A stretch of DNA of 27,248 nt from a virus, in the IMG/VR virus record IMGVR_UViG_3300047440_000191, positions 1 through 27,248 of that record; one strand, written 5' to 3'. Both the position numbers and the translations under genes were made by a program. This document shows positions 3,277 through 26,223 of this stretch, piece after piece. The notes under the pieces were generated by a model. That model searched no databases and was not told the DNA's origin. It was given only the letters and a program-made list of their open reading frames with translations. Every line of letters starts with the position of its first letter. Within the stretch, counting starts at the first letter, position 1.

Positions 3277-3906
3277 CTATGCTACCGGCGCATCGGGCGG
3301 TGTAGCACGTTTCGGATAAGGGCGGCTCGGCAGTGAGGCCCGGAGCTCTGGCGCGAGCGGATACAAGTACCGGTGCTTCTGCGCTGCGGGGCGCTTCGGC
3401 AAGTTCGAGTAGTCACGGATCGCGCCGCCCTTGCCGAACGCCCCCGAAGTAATCTCTCGCTGATGACACCAGCGCCCGCGAAAGTAGTATTCGTTCGCCG
3501 CAGCAGTGGTGCCCGAATACACCCAGTTCGTGGCCTGGTAGAGCGTCCCGACGTGGCCCTGGGAGATGTCTGCGAACGAGACCACCAGCCGCAGCCCAGG
3601 GTTCGTGCGCGCGAGCAGCCTCAGTGACACGCTGAGGGCTCGGCTGGTCGGGTGCACCCGTCCCGGCGCCAGCGCCACGCGAACCAGCTCACAGACCTGC
3701 AGGGAGCTGCAGCCGTACGGCGCGCCGAGGTGTGGAGTGGCGCCGCGCCCGTAGATGATCGCACCCACGAACCGGGGGGCTTCCCAGACGCCGTGACATA
3801 TGAGGCGGCCGACTGGCATGCGGGGCGCGTAGTGCCAGCGCTCCGCAGCTCCACGGGCGTCTGCAACCGTGCAGGGCGTCACTTCAAGGTGTGAGGTGTG
3901 GCGCAT
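3277..3906 (-). CDS. Mom-family DNA adenine modification protein, copy 1, 209 aa
   Basis: Resembles the Mom family (phage Mu Mom converts adenine in DNA to a carbamoylmethylated form that blocks restriction; the fold is GNAT-like). Landmarks in order: RWHY near residue 23, GVW followed by VGAIIYGRGA, the CELVRVALAP segment, TSRALSVSLRLLARTNPG, then SFADISQGHVGTLYQATNW around residues 109-127. The SFAD...YQA..W block is what I recall as the family signature, with Asp and Tyr as likely active-site residues. The C-terminus is basic. It overlaps its paralog by 23 nt and has only a weak GAAG as ribosome site, so translation is probably coupled. Minus strand, unlike its surroundings. Confidence 0.8.
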   Translation of the reverse strand: MRHTSHLEVTPCTVADARGAAERWHYAPRMPVGRLICHGVWEAPRFVGAIIYGRGATPHLGAPYGCSSLQVCELVRVALAPGRVHPTSRALSVSLRLLARTNPGLRLVVSFADISQGHVGTLYQATNWVYSGTTAAANEYYFRGRWCHQREITSGAFGKGGAIRDYSNLPKRPAAQKHRYLYPLAPELRASLPSRPYPKRATPPDAPVA

Positions 3907-4507
3907 GCTTCGGGTACGGCTGCGCGGCTATCACGCGGCGCAGGCGCTCATCGAGAGGGTAAACGTACCGATGCTTCGGGGGCGTGCGGCGCCGGGGCAA
4001 GAGGTTCCACCCGACCACTGCGGGTGAGCCGTCGAGCTGCGGGCCCGACACCACCCGCAGATGCTTCCAGACGCCCTGGTACATGAACTGGTAACTCTTC
4101 GCCGTCTCGCCCGTGTATATCCAGTTCGTGGCCTGATAGAGCGTGCCGACATGCTTCTGGGCTGTGTCGGCGTATGAGACCACACAGCGCAGCCCAGGGT
4201 TCGTGCGCGCCAGCATCCGCAGTGACACTCCCAGCGCGCGACTCGTCGGGACCTTCCGCCCGGGCGCGAGTGCGATCCGCACCAGCTCGCAAACCTGAAT
4301 GTTCGAGCACCCGAACGGGCGGCCGAGCTCCCGCGCCGCGCCGCGCCCGTAGATGATGACCCCGACCCATGCGCCTGACTCCCAGACGCCGTGACAGATG
4401 AGCCGCCCGACTGGGATGATGCGCGAGTAGTGCCAGCGCCTCACTGCGTCGGTGGCTTCTTTGACGCGACACGGACGGACCTCAAGTCGTAGCCGCAGCT
4501 CGGACAT
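3884..4507 (-). CDS. Mom-family DNA adenine modification protein, copy 2, 207 aa
   Basis: Paralog of the 3277-3906 gene, well over half identical by eye across the first ~140 residues. Shared blocks: RWHY, PVGRLICHGVWE, IIYGRGA, QVCELVR, APGR..PTSRAL, LLARTNPGLR-like, and SYADTAQKHVGTLYQATNW. The C-terminal thirds differ more (VWKHLRVVSG against WCHQREITSG) but both end KHRYxYPL...PYPK. The start is firm: AAGGAG lies 7 nt before the ATG. The first 67 nt lie inside the 3' end of the ParB-like gene, in another frame. It likely works in the same modification pathway; whether both copies are active or have different specificity cannot be told. Confidence 0.82.
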   Translation of the reverse strand: MSELRLRLEVRPCRVKEATDAVRRWHYSRIIPVGRLICHGVWESGAWVGVIIYGRGAARELGRPFGCSNIQVCELVRIALAPGRKVPTSRALGVSLRMLARTNPGLRCVVSYADTAQKHVGTLYQATNWIYTGETAKSYQFMYQGVWKHLRVVSGPQLDGSPAVVGWNLLPRRRTPPKHRYVYPLDERLRRVIAAQPYPKHAPHLTP

Positions 4508-5001
4508 GAACTGACTCCTTCGACCTCACCGGGTCGGTCTAGACGTGGCGCTGCGTCCTCATCGAGCTTGGTCGCGTCGGGCACAGTCATCAGCCGATCC
4601 AAGTCAGCGCGCGACCAGCCGGCGATGTGGATGTCAGCCTGATCGAAGCCAGTCAGCAGCGCAGCCAGCTCACCCGTCCACTCTGACAGCTCACCCAGCC
4701 GATTGTCTGACAGCGCCATCAAGTGAGCAGTCTGCTCGTCGACATCCATGAGACGAACAGGCACACGCGCCAGCCCGATGAGCAGAGCTGCCTTCCATCG
4801 CGTGTGCCCAGCGATAATCTCCAGGTTGGCTGCGCGGGCCACGATCGGCGCGCTGAACCCGAACTTGCGTATAGCTGCAGCCACCCGCCGCACAGGCTCA
4901 CCATCGTTCGCGCGGGGATTGTCAGCCCACGGCGTGAGCTTGCTCGGGTCGAGCCACACCGCTGCAGTTGTGTCACTGGTAGTCGTCATGATGCTTCGCA
5001 T
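4441..5001 (-). CDS. ParB-like (ParB/sulfiredoxin fold) domain protein with C-terminal CxxC, 186 aa
   Basis: Residues ~16-110 form a ParB/Srx-like N-terminal domain: LTPWADNPR, AAAIRKFGFSAPIV, EIIAGHTRWKAAL (the GHxR box), VPVRLMDVDEQTAHLMALSDNRL. In phages such domains are usually fused or adjacent to DNA methyltransferases; chromosomal ParB uses this fold to bind CTP. Residues 166-169 are CPSC, in a context (CPSCGYDLR) like half a zinc knuckle. I place the start at 5001 because AGGT lies about 6-8 nt upstream; ATG 4989 is an alternative. Longer versions reach into terS on the opposite strand and are rejected. It is first in a minus-strand operon with the two mom-like genes. Confidence 0.8.
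   Translation of the reverse strand: MRSIMTTTSDTTAAVWLDPSKLTPWADNPRANDGEPVRRVAAAIRKFGFSAPIVARAANLEIIAGHTRWKAALLIGLARVPVRLMDVDEQTAHLMALSDNRLGELSEWTGELAALLTGFDQADIHIAGWSRADLDRLMTVPDATKLDEDAAPRLDRPGEVEGVSSCPSCGYDLRSVRVASKKPPTQ
4521..4536 (-). promoter_or_regulatory. Hairpin abutting the Shine-Dalgarno of mom copy 2
   Basis: On the minus strand CGACC-CGGTGA-GGTCG can form a 5-bp stem directly followed by the AAGGAG ribosome site (4515-4520) and, after 7 nt, the ATG at 4507. The structure lies in coding sequence of the upstream gene. In phage Mu the mom start is controlled by RNA structure opened by the zinc protein Com; this hairpin is a candidate for similar control, but a 5-bp stem is common by chance. 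Confidence 0.3.
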
Positions 5002-5016
5002 GCTAGACCTAACGTC

Positions 5017-5439
5017 GTGCCTAAGCCACGGCTGCCAGACTACACGCGTGCGATCCACGACCGGCTGATCGAATACTTCAAGGCCGGCGCGTTCAAGCGC
5101 CACTGCGCGCAAGCGTGTCGGCTCTCCGAAGCGGACCTGGATGCATGGCTCGAGCTCGGGCGCGCTGGGAAAGAGCCGTATGCCACGCTGCTGCGTGACG
5201 TCGAACAAGCGATCGGTGATGACGCTATTCGTAACCAGCTCACTGTCTCTCGCGCTGCAGCTGGGCAAGGCAACCCGCGCGCAGACGTCCGCGCAGCGCA
5301 GTGGAACCTGGAGCGCAAGCACCCAGACCTGTACGGGCGGCAAGCTACTGAGGTCACGCCGTCAGGCCCGACGCGTCAGCCAGCTCCACCCGATGACGGC
5401 GTGCATGTTCCCAAGTTCAAGCCGTACATCGTGACCTGA
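5017..5439 (+). CDS. terS: Terminase small subunit, 140 aa
   Basis: Recognises phage DNA and hands it to the large subunit for packaging. The N-terminal ~50 residues form a homeodomain-like HTH (IHDRLIEYFKAGAFKRHCAQ, then LSEADLDAWLELG). A helical oligomerisation part follows (YATLLRDVEQAIGDDAIRNQ), then the common small-terminase pattern RAAQWNLERKHPDLYGRQ. The C-terminal ~30 residues are Pro-rich and disordered-looking. The start is the GTG at 5017, just 15 nt from the divergent ParB-like start; no good ribosome site is visible. Longer upstream readings overlap the ParB-like gene and are rejected. It sits two genes before the large subunit. Confidence 0.8.
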   Translation: MPKPRLPDYTRAIHDRLIEYFKAGAFKRHCAQACRLSEADLDAWLELGRAGKEPYATLLRDVEQAIGDDAIRNQLTVSRAAAGQGNPRADVRAAQWNLERKHPDLYGRQATEVTPSGPTRQPAPPDDGVHVPKFKPYIVT

Positions 5440-6002
5440 TGGCGTCAGCCCTGAATCAAGTAGTCATTCGCTCGGAAGGGCAAGCGCGGTTTCTGCAAGT
5501 GACAGGCTCACTGGCAGCGATCGCAGCGCGCCTCACTATGCGCTCCCCGCAGAGCATCGCGGACTGGCGCTCAGGCCGTAAGGTCCCGAGCCCCGAAGCG
5601 CGCGCGCGCATTGAAGGCGAGTTCGGGATCGACGCTGCGCTGTGGGACGTGCGGGCCGGCGCAGACCCAGCAGACCCCGAAGAGCATGAGGTCGGCGCCA
5701 CCTCACTGGATGACTGCATCAACGTACTCAAGACGATCCAGCGTGAGAGCAAGCGTGACGGGCTGCTGGCCGCTGAGCGGGTGAAGCTGGCCGACGCTGA
5801 GGCCCGCATACTCACGCTGCGCGCGCGCCTGGAAGCTGCAGCCGAACTATCAGAAGACCGCTATGTCAGAGACCATCCAGCATTCCGACGATTCTGCGAT
5901 CTTGTGATAGAAGCACTGAGGCCACACCCAGCTGCTGCGAAAGCAGTGCACGAAGCCATTCAACGCGCGATGAGGCAACGTGACGAGGTCGATAGCTCGT
6001 GA
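5439..6002 (+). CDS. HTH-domain protein with C-terminal coiled coil, 187 aa
   Basis: ATG 5439 overlaps the small-terminase stop (TGATG). Residues ~24-65 look like an XRE-type HTH: SLAAIAARLTMRSPQSIADW, then RSGRKVPSPEARARIEGEFG. Residues ~88-140 are a long charged helix likely to form a coiled coil (TIQRESKRDGLLAAE, KLADAEARILTLRARLE). The C-terminus is helical. Its place between the terminase genes suggests a packaging or assembly cofactor, or an accessory DNA-recognition subunit. It overlaps the next gene by 23 nt. The HTH segment resembles the small protein after the large terminase. Confidence 0.7.
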   Translation: MASALNQVVIRSEGQARFLQVTGSLAAIAARLTMRSPQSIADWRSGRKVPSPEARARIEGEFGIDAALWDVRAGADPADPEEHEVGATSLDDCINVLKTIQRESKRDGLLAAERVKLADAEARILTLRARLEAAAELSEDRYVRDHPAFRRFCDLVIEALRPHPAAAKAVHEAIQRAMRQRDEVDSS

Positions 6003-7650
6003 GCTTGCACTGCGGAAGTCAGCCCCGGCACCGTCCGTGTGGACGTTCCCGGAGGCGTTCGACTTGCGGCTCATCAAGCTGCTCGAAGAGACCTTACACA
6101 TTCAGTTCCCGAGCCCGGTCTTCCAGCAAGACCCGGTCAAGTTCTTTCGTGACATTCTCGGCGTCGCGCCCTGGTCGCGGCAGATCGAGATCATCGAAGC
6201 GGTGCGCGATCACAAGCGTGTCGCAGTGTGCTCAGGCCACAAGGTCTCGAAGTCGCACACTGCTGCAGGCATAGCACTGTGGTTCTACTGTTCGTTCGAT
6301 GACGCCCGCGTCGTGCTCACGAGCACCACCTCACGCCAGGTCGACCAGATACTCTGGCGTGAGCTGCGCATGCTGCGCGCGCGCGCTGGGCGGTGTGTGG
6401 AGTGCAAGCTCGAAGACCCGAGCGGGCTCATCATCCCGCGCCCGTGCGAACACTCCACACTGATCGAAGGCGAACAGGGTGAGCTGGCGCGGACGGGGCT
6501 CAAGTCATCTGACTTCCGTGAGGTGGTCGGCTTCACTGCGCGTGAGGCGGAAGCTGTGGCCGGCATCAGCGGGCGCAATCTGCTCTACATCGCAGACGAA
6601 GCTTCGGGCATCGGGGATGAGATATTCGACGCCATCGAGGGCAACCGCGCCGGCGGCGCGCGCCTGGTGATGCTCTCCAACGGCACGCGCAATGAGGGCG
6701 CGTTCTTCGAGGCATTCACTACGAAGTCAGCGTTCTACTTCACGATGCGTGTGTCGTCAGAAGAGACGCCGAACGTGATCGAAGGGCGTGAGGTCATCCC
6801 CGGTCTGGCAACGCGTGAGTGGGTGGAAGAGAAGAAACAAGAGTGGGGCGAAAACAGTCCGCTCTACCTCATACGTGTCAAGGGTCAGCACGCACTGTCA
6901 GAAGAAGCGAAAATCTTCTCGGTGCACATGATCGGCCAAGCCGAAGCACGCTGGGCTGTGACGCCCGACGCTGGCCGCCTGTACATCGGCATCGATCCAG
7001 CTGGTGAGACTGGGCTCGGTGATGACACTGCGTTCGCTGTGCGGCGCGGCATGAAGCTGCTGGCTGTGCGGCGACAGCGCGGGCTGAACGATGAGCAGCA
7101 CTTCGTCCAGCTGATGCTGCTGATACAAGAGTTCGCGCTGCCACGTGAGCTGCCGGTCGTCGTGCTCGACCGTGACGGCCCGATCGGCATGAAGCTCTCT
7201 GCTCATCTGCGCGCGCACGAAGAAGGCGACGCCCGCCGCTTCGAGCTGGTGACAGTCCGCGCAGCTGACAAAGCGATCAGGCAGCCATACATCTACGACC
7301 GCATGCGTGATGAGCTATGCGCGAACTTGTACGCATGGTTCCGCGACGGCGGCGCCATCGTCGAAGACGTCAAGCTCGAAGCAGAGCTGCACGCCATGGA
7401 GTGGAAGCAAGCTATCACTGGCCGACTCAAGCTCACGCCGAAGGACACGTTGCGGAAGCTGCTAGGCAGGTCACCTGACACTTATGATGCAGTCGCACTC
7501 TGTGCATGGGAACCACTAAGCATGATGCAAGCCCTCACGACTGATGAACGCGCGAAGCTCGATGCAGCCACAGCTCCAGCTGCGCCGATGCAGCCGTATG
7601 CAGAGCAGACGTTCGACCCATTCAGCGGAGGTGAATGGTGGAGGCGCTAA
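5980..7650 (+). CDS. terL: Terminase large subunit, 556 aa
   Basis: Packaging motor ATPase and nuclease. The P-loop lies at residues 85-92, SGHKVSKS, with Ser at 90 where Gly is usual. Walker B is LLYIADEA (201-208). The RNase H-like nuclease has acidic residues at GIDPAGE (D339), VVLDRDG (D397/D399) and PDTYDAVAL (D500/D503). An insertion in the ATPase domain carries C139, C142, C156 and H158, a possible zinc knuckle. The start is GTG 5980 after GAGG, overlapping the upstream gene by 23 nt. Length and layout fit large terminases of Mu-like phages. Confidence 0.93.
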   Translation: MTRSIARELALRKSAPAPSVWTFPEAFDLRLIKLLEETLHIQFPSPVFQQDPVKFFRDILGVAPWSRQIEIIEAVRDHKRVAVCSGHKVSKSHTAAGIALWFYCSFDDARVVLTSTTSRQVDQILWRELRMLRARAGRCVECKLEDPSGLIIPRPCEHSTLIEGEQGELARTGLKSSDFREVVGFTAREAEAVAGISGRNLLYIADEASGIGDEIFDAIEGNRAGGARLVMLSNGTRNEGAFFEAFTTKSAFYFTMRVSSEETPNVIEGREVIPGLATREWVEEKKQEWGENSPLYLIRVKGQHALSEEAKIFSVHMIGQAEARWAVTPDAGRLYIGIDPAGETGLGDDTAFAVRRGMKLLAVRRQRGLNDEQHFVQLMLLIQEFALPRELPVVVLDRDGPIGMKLSAHLRAHEEGDARRFELVTVRAADKAIRQPYIYDRMRDELCANLYAWFRDGGAIVEDVKLEAELHAMEWKQAITGRLKLTPKDTLRKLLGRSPDTYDAVALCAWEPLSMMQALTTDERAKLDAATAPAAPMQPYAEQTFDPFSGGEWWRR

Positions 7651-23667: not shown

Positions 23668-26223
23668 ATGTCATTCCTAGATACGATCCTGAGCAGCGGT
23701 CCGGCCGACTCGCTGCTCACCACTGCAGCGCCGGTCAACGTGTCACACGCTACGCCGCCCGCGCCCGGCATGGTGCTGACTGCGATCGACGCTCTGAATG
23801 CAAAGTGGCAAGTGCCGGCGAGCGCCACCGCTGCAGGCTCACTTCTGACTGCGACCGGTGAGGTGGATGTCAGCGGGTCTGGAGCTCCAGCGCCTGGCGA
23901 CGTGCTGACTGCAGTCAGCGCGACCGAAGCGATCTGGGCTCCGAGCGGGACTGCTTCGGACTTCATGCCGAGTGAGGTCACGCCGAACGAACCAGGCGCG
24001 CCCGGCGTTGACACTGCGCTGTCGCGTGCTGACCACGTGCATCCAGTGGCGATCGCTGAGCCGGCCGCGCTGGTGCCAGGCGCTGTGGCTGAGATCGGCA
24101 CCAGCACTGCGCTTGCAGTGTCAGACCATGTGCATGAGCTTCCGCCGTTCGGCACTACGCCGGGCACGTTCGCAGAGGGCTCAGACCCGCGCATCGCGCT
24201 GTTGTTCAATGACCTGTCAGTGACATCACTGCAGCTCGGCGAGTGGGTGATCTTGCCGGACACCAGTCCTGATGAGGGCTCGACCTATGTCATCACGTTC
24301 CCAGAAGACCCGCCGGTCGTTGACGGCAGTCGCTTCGGCATCATGCGCCAGCACGACACTCCGTATGAGGAGGTGCATGTCCAGGGCTACAGCATTCAAG
24401 GACTCGACGGCCACTTCGGAACAGACTCACAGATACACGAAGGGCAGTATGCAGAGTGGACGTATAGCGATTACTTGGGCGGCTGGCGCCTCACGCTGAC
24501 GACCACGGGGATCGGTGAGTCACACGTCCCGCCAGACGTGGCTGCGATCGGCTTCGGGCAAGCTGGCAGCTCACACGCTCCTGCGCGCGCAGACCACCAG
24601 CATGCAGTGGCGACCAGCGGCTCAGTCGCGTCCCTGACAGTCGGCGGAGCAGGCACAGCTGGCGCGTCCGCACTGATCGCTCGAGCTGACCACGCGCACG
24701 GGATGCCAGGTCTAGCGACTGGCGTAGCGAGCGGCTTCATGTCCAGTGCGGACTTCACGAAGCTCGGCACCGTACAGTCGAACGCTGCGCCAGTGTCTAG
24801 CACTGCTCCCACTCAGATAACTGTCACCACCGCTGCGGCTGGTGCTGCCACTGATGCAGCCCGACGCGACCACGTACACAGCGTGTCGACAGCTGCGCCG
24901 ACTGCGCTCGCGATCGGGTCGGCGCAGAACGCTGGCAGCGCGACCTCACTGTCACGCTCTGACCACGTGCATGCGATGCCGGGCGCAGCAGCGCCGTCAT
25001 CACTCGCGATCGGTGGGTCGAACAACGCTGGAGCTTCAGCGTCATTCGCGCGCGCTGACCACGTGCATGCGCTTCCGACTGCCGGGACTCCAAGCTCTCT
25101 AACACTCGCCGGCTCGAACAACGCGGGCGTGTCCGCAAGTCTGGCAGCAGCTGACCACGTGCACGCACTGCCGGCGAGCAATGTGACTCCAGCCACGCTG
25201 TCAGTCGGCGGCGCTGCTTCGGTGGGCGTGTCGACTGCGATCCCGAAAGCTGACCACGTGCACGCGATGCCGAACATCGCGACCACCAGTACGGATGGTT
25301 TCTTGTCGGCGAATGACAAGCTCATCCTGAGTCGCATGCCGCGCGTGAATCAGTGCCGCATCAGTGGTGACCCGAACAGTTCGGTCATGGTGGCTGACAA
25401 CGCGGCGATCAGCACGATCTACCTGCTGCCGCACACCGGCGCGACGATCAGCCTGTACGTGTCGGCGCTCGGGATATGGGTGCCGTTCGACATCGCAGCA
25501 GCTGGCATCTCGCTCACGCTGTCAGGCGCCATGACGCCGGGTCGACCGTTCGACATCTGGTGCGTGGCGCCGGCATCAATCGGGGGCACGCCGACGCTTG
25601 AGCAGTACCCGTGGAGCACTGCGAACGTGCGTGTGACAGCGCTCGCGCTGCAGGACGGCGTGCTCATCAAGAGTGGTGACCCGACGCGGCGCTATGTCGG
25701 AACCATCATGGCCCGCACTGCGTCGACGATCGCGTACCTGACAGCGGGCTACACCACGACGACGGCAAAGTGTGACATCTGGAATGCAGACAACCGGGTC
25801 GAAGGCGCGTTCGTCTGGGAGCCCGCCTGGACAGGTTCATTCCCAGTCAGCAGTGCGGGCGTCTGGTTTCTCCCGACTGTCGGCGCGAAGTTCGAGTTCG
25901 TGGCTGGCCGCGTGCTTGACCCGCTCGACTCACAGTTCTCAGCTGGTGTGAACTCGGCAGGCACTGCGAACTCTGGCTTCGTTGGCATCTCACTGAATGG
26001 CGCGGAGCAAGATCGCGCAGCGCGCATCATCACTGCTGCTGGAGAAGTCTCACAGGGCACTGCGTATCAGCAGTCGCTGCCAGCACTCGGCTCGAACAAC
26101 CTGCAGTTCATGCTGTTCGGCAGCACGACTTCGGTCGTGTTCTATCTGACTGATGACTCGGGCGGCGCGGGTGGCAATCCGCCGCTCTACAAGTACGGAT
26201 GCGTCACGCGATACATGTACTAG
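23668..26223 (+). CDS. Long tail fibre protein with histidine repeats, 851 aa
   Basis: Largest gene in the window. N-terminal ~110 residues with two GxVLTA-type repeats. From residue 122 to 532 there are nine D-[HQA]-x-H units (D122, 153, 309, 341, 401, 432, 464, 496, 529), most in the context aRaDHVHam. The last five are spaced 31-33 residues. HxH motifs in T4 gp37 and P2-type spikes bind iron along the trimer axis. The C-terminal domain (~560-851) includes SANDKLILSRMP and SGDPTRRYVGTIMA, the latter typical of fibre tips. No tail fibre chaperone gene follows. Confidence 0.85.
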   Translation: MSFLDTILSSGPADSLLTTAAPVNVSHATPPAPGMVLTAIDALNAKWQVPASATAAGSLLTATGEVDVSGSGAPAPGDVLTAVSATEAIWAPSGTASDFMPSEVTPNEPGAPGVDTALSRADHVHPVAIAEPAALVPGAVAEIGTSTALAVSDHVHELPPFGTTPGTFAEGSDPRIALLFNDLSVTSLQLGEWVILPDTSPDEGSTYVITFPEDPPVVDGSRFGIMRQHDTPYEEVHVQGYSIQGLDGHFGTDSQIHEGQYAEWTYSDYLGGWRLTLTTTGIGESHVPPDVAAIGFGQAGSSHAPARADHQHAVATSGSVASLTVGGAGTAGASALIARADHAHGMPGLATGVASGFMSSADFTKLGTVQSNAAPVSSTAPTQITVTTAAAGAATDAARRDHVHSVSTAAPTALAIGSAQNAGSATSLSRSDHVHAMPGAAAPSSLAIGGSNNAGASASFARADHVHALPTAGTPSSLTLAGSNNAGVSASLAAADHVHALPASNVTPATLSVGGAASVGVSTAIPKADHVHAMPNIATTSTDGFLSANDKLILSRMPRVNQCRISGDPNSSVMVADNAAISTIYLLPHTGATISLYVSALGIWVPFDIAAAGISLTLSGAMTPGRPFDIWCVAPASIGGTPTLEQYPWSTANVRVTALALQDGVLIKSGDPTRRYVGTIMARTASTIAYLTAGYTTTTAKCDIWNADNRVEGAFVWEPAWTGSFPVSSAGVWFLPTVGAKFEFVAGRVLDPLDSQFSAGVNSAGTANSGFVGISLNGAEQDRAARIITAAGEVSQGTAYQQSLPALGSNNLQFMLFGSTTSVVFYLTDDSGGAGGNPPLYKYGCVTRYMY
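24020..25272 (+). repeat. Degenerate coding repeats with DHVH motif
   Basis: The nine units share DNA close to GCTGACCACGTGCA; in the last five copies the spacing is about 93-99 nt. Flanking residues are also alike (SxxNAGxSxxxxRADHVHAxP). This shows internal duplication of one unit of ~32 residues in the fibre, four or five times in tandem, with older, more diverged copies upstream. Confidence 0.88.

Follow-up and report, generated by a model that had tools for sequence, protein, structure and literature searches.

A ParB-linked operon with a private tandem duplication of Mom in a temperate tailed phage: a candidate DNA adenine hypermodification system

Introduction

The closest described relative of the genes reported here is Mom of phage Mu, which is named as an adenine-modifying methylcarbamoylase in the structural entry 8bv8. 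The title of that entry calls the S124A mutant inactive, and a review describes the reaction of Mom as acyl transfer to the N6 of adenine (PMC7824862). In Mu, the only mom copy lies at the right end, in a short overlapping operon in which it is preceded by com, and it has no ParB partner.

ParB-fold proteins have been found in recent surveys next to phage DNA-modifying enzymes or fused with them (PMC12783734, PMC12704722). In the phage ParB-N6/N4 methyltransferase fusions, the ParB module is N-terminal to a SAM methyltransferase in cis, with no knuckle tail (PMC12704722). NTP binding via the GxxR motif has been shown for several ParB fusions, among them an acetyltransferase fusion that binds GTP, although the sequence does not predict which nucleotide is preferred (PMC12704722). 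At the CmoX carboxymethylcytosine loci, a ParB_N protein lies near a phage base-modifying enzyme of cytosine C5 chemistry rather than Mom, and the role of this ParB was stated as unknown (PMC12783734).

ParB and Mom also occur side by side. In phiEf11, Appa, Sicarius2, and Salinibacter phage B2_17, a ParB gene with the same kind of tail as described below lies directly upstream of a single Mom gene, overlapping or abutting it, and these pairs are covered gene by gene in public annotation. A literature search, with key subscription papers outside its reach, found no paper describing ParB–Mom as a system. Here, we analyzed a 27,248-nt stretch of viral DNA (positions 1 to 27,248 of IMG/VR record IMGVR_UViG_3300047440_000191, referred to as the window) in which ParB is followed by two Moms. 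The parts of this cassette belong to known families, and its particular feature is the private tandem Mom.

Results and discussion

Gene organization of the operon and its phage

The initial annotation described three overlapping minus-strand genes at positions 3277 to 5001, lying among plus-strand genes and before the terminase. Coordinates and strands were both correct. The features of the region are as follows.

4441..5001, minus strand: gene for a ParB_N / ParB-CTPase-fold protein, 186 aa from the ATG at 5001 or 182 aa from the ATG at 4989
3884..4507, minus strand: MomA, first Mom copy, predicted Mom-family GNAT-fold enzyme, 207 aa (Pfam Mom, 8bv8)
3277..3906, minus strand: MomB, second Mom copy, paralog of MomA, 209 aa (Pfam Mom)
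4441..4507, minus strand: ParB/MomA overlap of 67 nt (from the ORF coordinates), encoding the ParB knuckle tail and the start of MomA
5017..5439, plus strand: small terminase subunit, divergent neighbor (phrog_4102, E 1.1e-12)
5980..7650, plus strand: large terminase subunit (phrog_2, E 8.8e-23)

The 67-nt overlap suggests that ParB and MomA are translationally coupled. By ORF coordinates, the MomA and MomB genes overlap by 23 nt. The cassette is flanked by small plus-strand genes of unknown function on one side and by the terminase genes on the other, where the parB ATG (5001) and the GTG of the small terminase gene, which is on the opposite strand, lie 15 nt apart. A promoter and terminator scan of the minus-strand operon gave nothing usable. 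The GC content of the cassette was 65 to 68%, compared with 59 to 67% nearby, and this rise is so slight that a strong sign of recent import is absent.

Tail sheath and Mu-type portal genes were detected in the phage. Over its left 12.5 kb, the window was 98% identical to another IMG/VR contig (44,220 nt). The two ends of this contig overlap each other when placed on the window, so that it probably represents a complete genome with circular permutation. The contig encodes a tyrosine integrase, pieces of a RecD-like helicase, and a primase/helicase. Judged by gene content, the host of the cassette is a temperate tailed phage. A Mu-like transposable phage was unsupported, given the tyrosine integrase of the related contig; no match to Mu-transpos_C was found on that contig, and control sequences gave none either. 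A stretch within the last large gene of the window (approximately positions 24,437 to 24,981) was 75% alike to the contig, much lower than elsewhere.

Two Mom copies with conserved key residues

MomA and MomB matched the Pfam Mom profile (PF25680) at 137.9 and 133.9 bits, respectively, over positions 2 to 202 of 202, which is about five-fold above the gathering cut-off of 27.1 bits. The ParB protein scored 39.8 bits against ParB_N (gathering cut-off, 26.3 bits) and matched the PHROG ParB-like partition protein with an E value of 7e-30. At these scores, the Mom and ParB_N assignments of the cassette are far beyond chance. The block SxADxxQxHVGTLYQATNW, which had drawn attention to the Mom family, was found in both proteins (SYADTAQKHVGTLYQATNW and SFADISQGHVGTLYQATNW).

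The sole sequence match of MomA in the PDB was 8bv8. The predicted structure of MomA (pLDDT 94) also had 8bv8 as its top fold match (E 1.6e-12, TM 0.70), followed by general GNAT enzymes, so that structure prediction returned the GNAT/Mom fold that had been proposed. The alignments behind the structure models left out rows from the phages collection. A GNAT-like Mom fold is likewise expected of MomB from its identity to MomA. Mom and ParB identities were thus borne out by sequence and by the predicted folds of MomA and ParB.

The equivalents of Mu Mom S124 are S89 in MomA and S88 in MomB, those of D149 are D114 and D113, and H58 corresponds to H26 in MomA. In Mu numbering, H58, Y59, R111, D149, Y159, Q160, N163, and H183 are identical in all three proteins. 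The near-invariant residues of 216 diverse Moms were all kept in both copies. In the comparison with the 98%-identical phage, silent and replacing codon differences stood at 9:1 in MomA, 5:0 in MomB, and 7:4 in ParB; on this two-phage comparison, MomA and MomB evolve under purifying selection. Both copies look catalytically competent from their sequences. A reading of one copy as a decaying pseudogene was ruled out by the kept invariant residues together with the purifying selection.

Against these likenesses to Mu stand clear differences. The roughly 30-residue N-terminal extension of Mu Mom is absent from the window Moms, and the two types belong to separate clades. A Mu-like com–mom arrangement was rejected on gene position and phylogeny, because ParB occupies the com position and the window Moms fall in another clade.

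MomA and MomB shared 58% identity over 195 aa, and the best relatives of either, other than each other, were below 50%. When 112 Moms were placed on a tree with IQ-TREE, the two grouped as sisters (SH-aLRT 99) and shared a long stem. In sequence terms, the pair is a private, lineage-specific tandem duplication. It is possible, though not the reading that we favor, that the second Mom simply adds dosage or a redundant copy and brings no new specificity, which would compete only with the division-of-labor part of the interpretation given below. Both copies retain all invariant residues, as dosage would allow, and sporadic tandem Mom duplications of the ParB–Mom–Mom form occur elsewhere (loci L334, L354, and L376). 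However, a divergence to 58% identity with both copies under purifying selection suggests more than dosage.

The other tandems were varied. L354 (2016-4570) carries two ParBs followed by two Moms of different subclades, an arrangement in which two ParB-Mom pairs have possibly merged. Both Mom frames of the L376 tandem are broken. Tandem Moms without ParB were found at L236, L252, and L388. At L060 (5744-6307) and L321 (429-992), a Mom from a different clade, itself without ParB, was found upstream of a ParB-Mom pair; since both are on one contig, some phages carry two Mom types.

Linkage of ParB to one Mom clade

To place the operon in the wider family, approximately 420 Mom ORFs in 393 loci were collected; the sources were a first scan, scans with the Mu, Proteus-phage, and Lupine-phage Moms and with MomB, bacterial genomes, and named phages. 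The initial annotation had expected ParB-like and Mom genes to occur together in other genomes, and they did so at many loci. In the first scan, 79 of the 80 closest viral loci had ParB as the next gene upstream, in the same orientation as Mom, and the 80th ends at a contig edge. Counted over Moms with sufficient upstream DNA, ParB was present upstream in 79/82 of the first scan, 72/85 of the MomB scan, and 19/29 of the genome contigs. By the same count, it was absent throughout the Mu (0/32), Proteus (0/73), and Lupine (0/84) scans, a total of 0/189. Since Mu-type and most other Moms are without ParB, ParB is not needed for Mom chemistry generally.

On a dereplicated tree of 219 rows, the ParB label required 3 changes, compared with a mean of 71 after shuffling. 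One Mom clade (105 rows, local support 99) contained all 101 linked rows, 2 unlinked rows, and 2 undetermined rows; tandem second copies were hand-counted as linked, and the window pair was added just in the 112-Mom tree. The unlinked members were L083 (Crossiella) and L099 (Bacteroidales MAG), in which no ParB was detected, relaxed thresholds included. As far as these sequences go, ParB upstream of Mom is the mark of essentially one Mom clade.

The ParB stop overlapped the inferred Mom start, with start codons chosen by rule, at 122 of 148 junctions (median, 11 nt). No single-chain ParB–Mom fusion was found among the approximately 420 Moms. The three-gene module that had been proposed thus holds in part: the ParB-Mom operon recurs in many phages, but the second Mom is a local duplication and not part of the unit.

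A conserved tail on the Mom-associated ParB

The ParB/Srx-like assignment with NPR and GHTR boxes was also upheld. Both boxes are present, and GHTR (residues 65 to 68) is the GxxR P-motif. The ParB model (pLDDT 85) had 7bm8 ParB as its best fold match (E 3e-8); the matches were CTP- and CDP-bound ParBs (including 7bm8 and 6sdk), followed by sulfiredoxin. ParB_N was the sole domain found in the protein, with neither the HTH nor the C-terminal dimerization domain of canonical ParB. A canonical role in plasmid partition was rejected, as the protein has no HTH and the scanned genes include no parA.

Beyond the ParB fold, the model contains a few short helices and then a low-confidence tail. In sequence, this C-terminal part is a short helical stretch followed by a tail with FxPxxxxDQGxLD and CPxCG, the latter reading CPSCG in the window. 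With two cysteines alone, the CPxCG tail may not bind zinc. A CxxC knuckle was present in 90 of 101 nonredundant Mom-partner ParBs. Ten of the 11 knuckle-free partners belong to one Mom subclade and have a different tail, often ending SVSxGE[IL]; the eleventh, L068, falls outside the CxxC pattern with CPCGC. When the consensus tail was searched by tblastn, 34 of 50,697 phage records matched, and these were Arthrobacter, Microbacterium, Enterococcus, and Salinibacter phages that carry the ParB-linked Mom type.

The tail also varied together with Mom. Over 88 knuckle-tailed pairs, Mom distance correlated more closely with tail distance (r 0.51) than with ParB-body distance (r 0.38). The bootstrap interval of the difference was 0.01 to 0.24, and none of 2000 permutations reached either value. 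Because just the last tail codons overlap mom at most loci, shared DNA explains little of this covariation; the window is an exception, in that its ParB/MomA overlap spans the knuckle itself.

Proposed function and alternatives

On balance, we think it fairly probable that the operon is a ParB-Mom type system for hypermodification of adenines in phage DNA against restriction, in which ParB loads, positions, or activates Mom via its tail. In this scheme we infer the chemistry, the NTP binding, the ParB–Mom contact, the function of ParB, and the division of labor between MomA and MomB. The ParB-fold protein would bind nucleotide through its GxxR pocket and associate with DNA, and its C-terminal DQGxLD/CPxCG tail would hold Mom. 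ParB would then load or position Mom on phage DNA or turn it on. Like Mu Mom, the Mom subunits would attach a methylcarbamoyl-type group to adenine, so that MomA and MomB probably add a bulky group to DNA adenines. By their family membership, the window Moms should modify adenines of the phage DNA and protect it against restriction. Both duplicates would be kept active, most likely for a wider target set or as a heterodimer.

A less likely reading makes ParB a brake or guard that limits or times Mom, or a regulator of the operon, comparable to DndB and Com. DndB, a member of the ParB superfamily, has been described as an ATP-dependent negative regulator in phosphorothioation (PMC10853773), and the small zinc-finger protein Com controls mom translation in Mu (PMC6483171). 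The position of parB, first in the operon and overlapping mom, would suit such a role. However, this ParB is without an HTH, and covalent ParB-methyltransferase fusions are better explained by an enzyme component than by a repressor. Improbable is a ParB nuclease that nicks unmarked host or rival DNA while Mom marks phage DNA, as a compact restriction-modification pair: nonspecific nickase activity was reported for ParB-superfamily proteins, a ParB-methylase fusion included (PMC5512222), and jumbo-phage Moms have nuclease-domain fusions (PMC7824862), but no such active site was found in the ParB sequence or model, whose best fold matches are CTP-binding ParBs.

A loader or activator is preferred over a brake or nuclease because methyltransferases carry the same ParB module as a cis fusion. 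A recruiter is not the sole option, given that nickase activity has also been reported for ParB-modification fusions (PMC5512222). In the ParB–Mom operon, ParB and enzyme are kept as separate proteins, one Mom clade with ParB and others without it form a clean contrast, and the conserved tail is a candidate docking element. The role of ParB is therefore directly testable in two- or three-gene constructs. The doubled Mom offers a natural test of how Mom target sites are chosen, and the pairing provides a handle on phage ParB function beside DNA-modifying enzymes.

Related ParB proteins beside other DNA-modifying enzymes

Two ParB queries yielded 89 ParB loci. In 31 of these, ParB was short, bore CxxC, and lay before a Mom. 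Long ParBs made up 45 of the 89, at least 36 of them with a DPPY-type methyltransferase motif, and Pfam N6_N4_Mtase was confirmed in three long proteins. The nearest relatives of the window ParB outside its own phage were found at L479 to L482 (47 to 48%), which are methyltransferase fusions or glycosyltransferase-linked ParBs.

Other partners were also observed. At L408 and L416, a ParB whose knuckle reads CPKCGFEFDD is followed by a C5 DNA methylase that bears an SPPC motif, an arrangement that resembles the CmoX context. At L479 (4001-5621), a ParB with a longer, different tail precedes a TET-associated glycosyltransferase (PF20691), and at L433 and L435 ParB is found before a sequence similar to this glycosyltransferase. 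A ParB tail ending CRVLTM or similar was found before an ABC-ATPase/GNAT-type protein at L438, L442, L451, and L468; these loci may correspond to a predicted system for acyl modification of bases to which PMC7824862 refers. More distant ParBs at L483 to L486 precede an SGGKDS-motif (PP-loop-like) protein, possibly a PAPS-reductase/DndC-like PP-loop enzyme in an IbrAB-like arrangement. The ParBs before the C5 methylase, glycosyltransferase, ABC-GNAT, and SGGKDS proteins each have their own tail.

Across these loci, the phage ParB seems to be a single DNA-facing or switch module whose partners can be exchanged. More tentatively, and with some doubt on our part, these ParBs may act as a common DNA-loading subunit, switched by NTP, for base-modifying enzymes that are unrelated to one another, with swappable C-terminal tails that match ParB to each enzyme; in the window, one ParB would serve a MomA/MomB heterodimer with divided targets. 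At five further loci (L424, L431, L443, L454, and L455), a ParB with LVIIDFDKAI in its tail precedes a phosphoglycerate-mutase-like protein.
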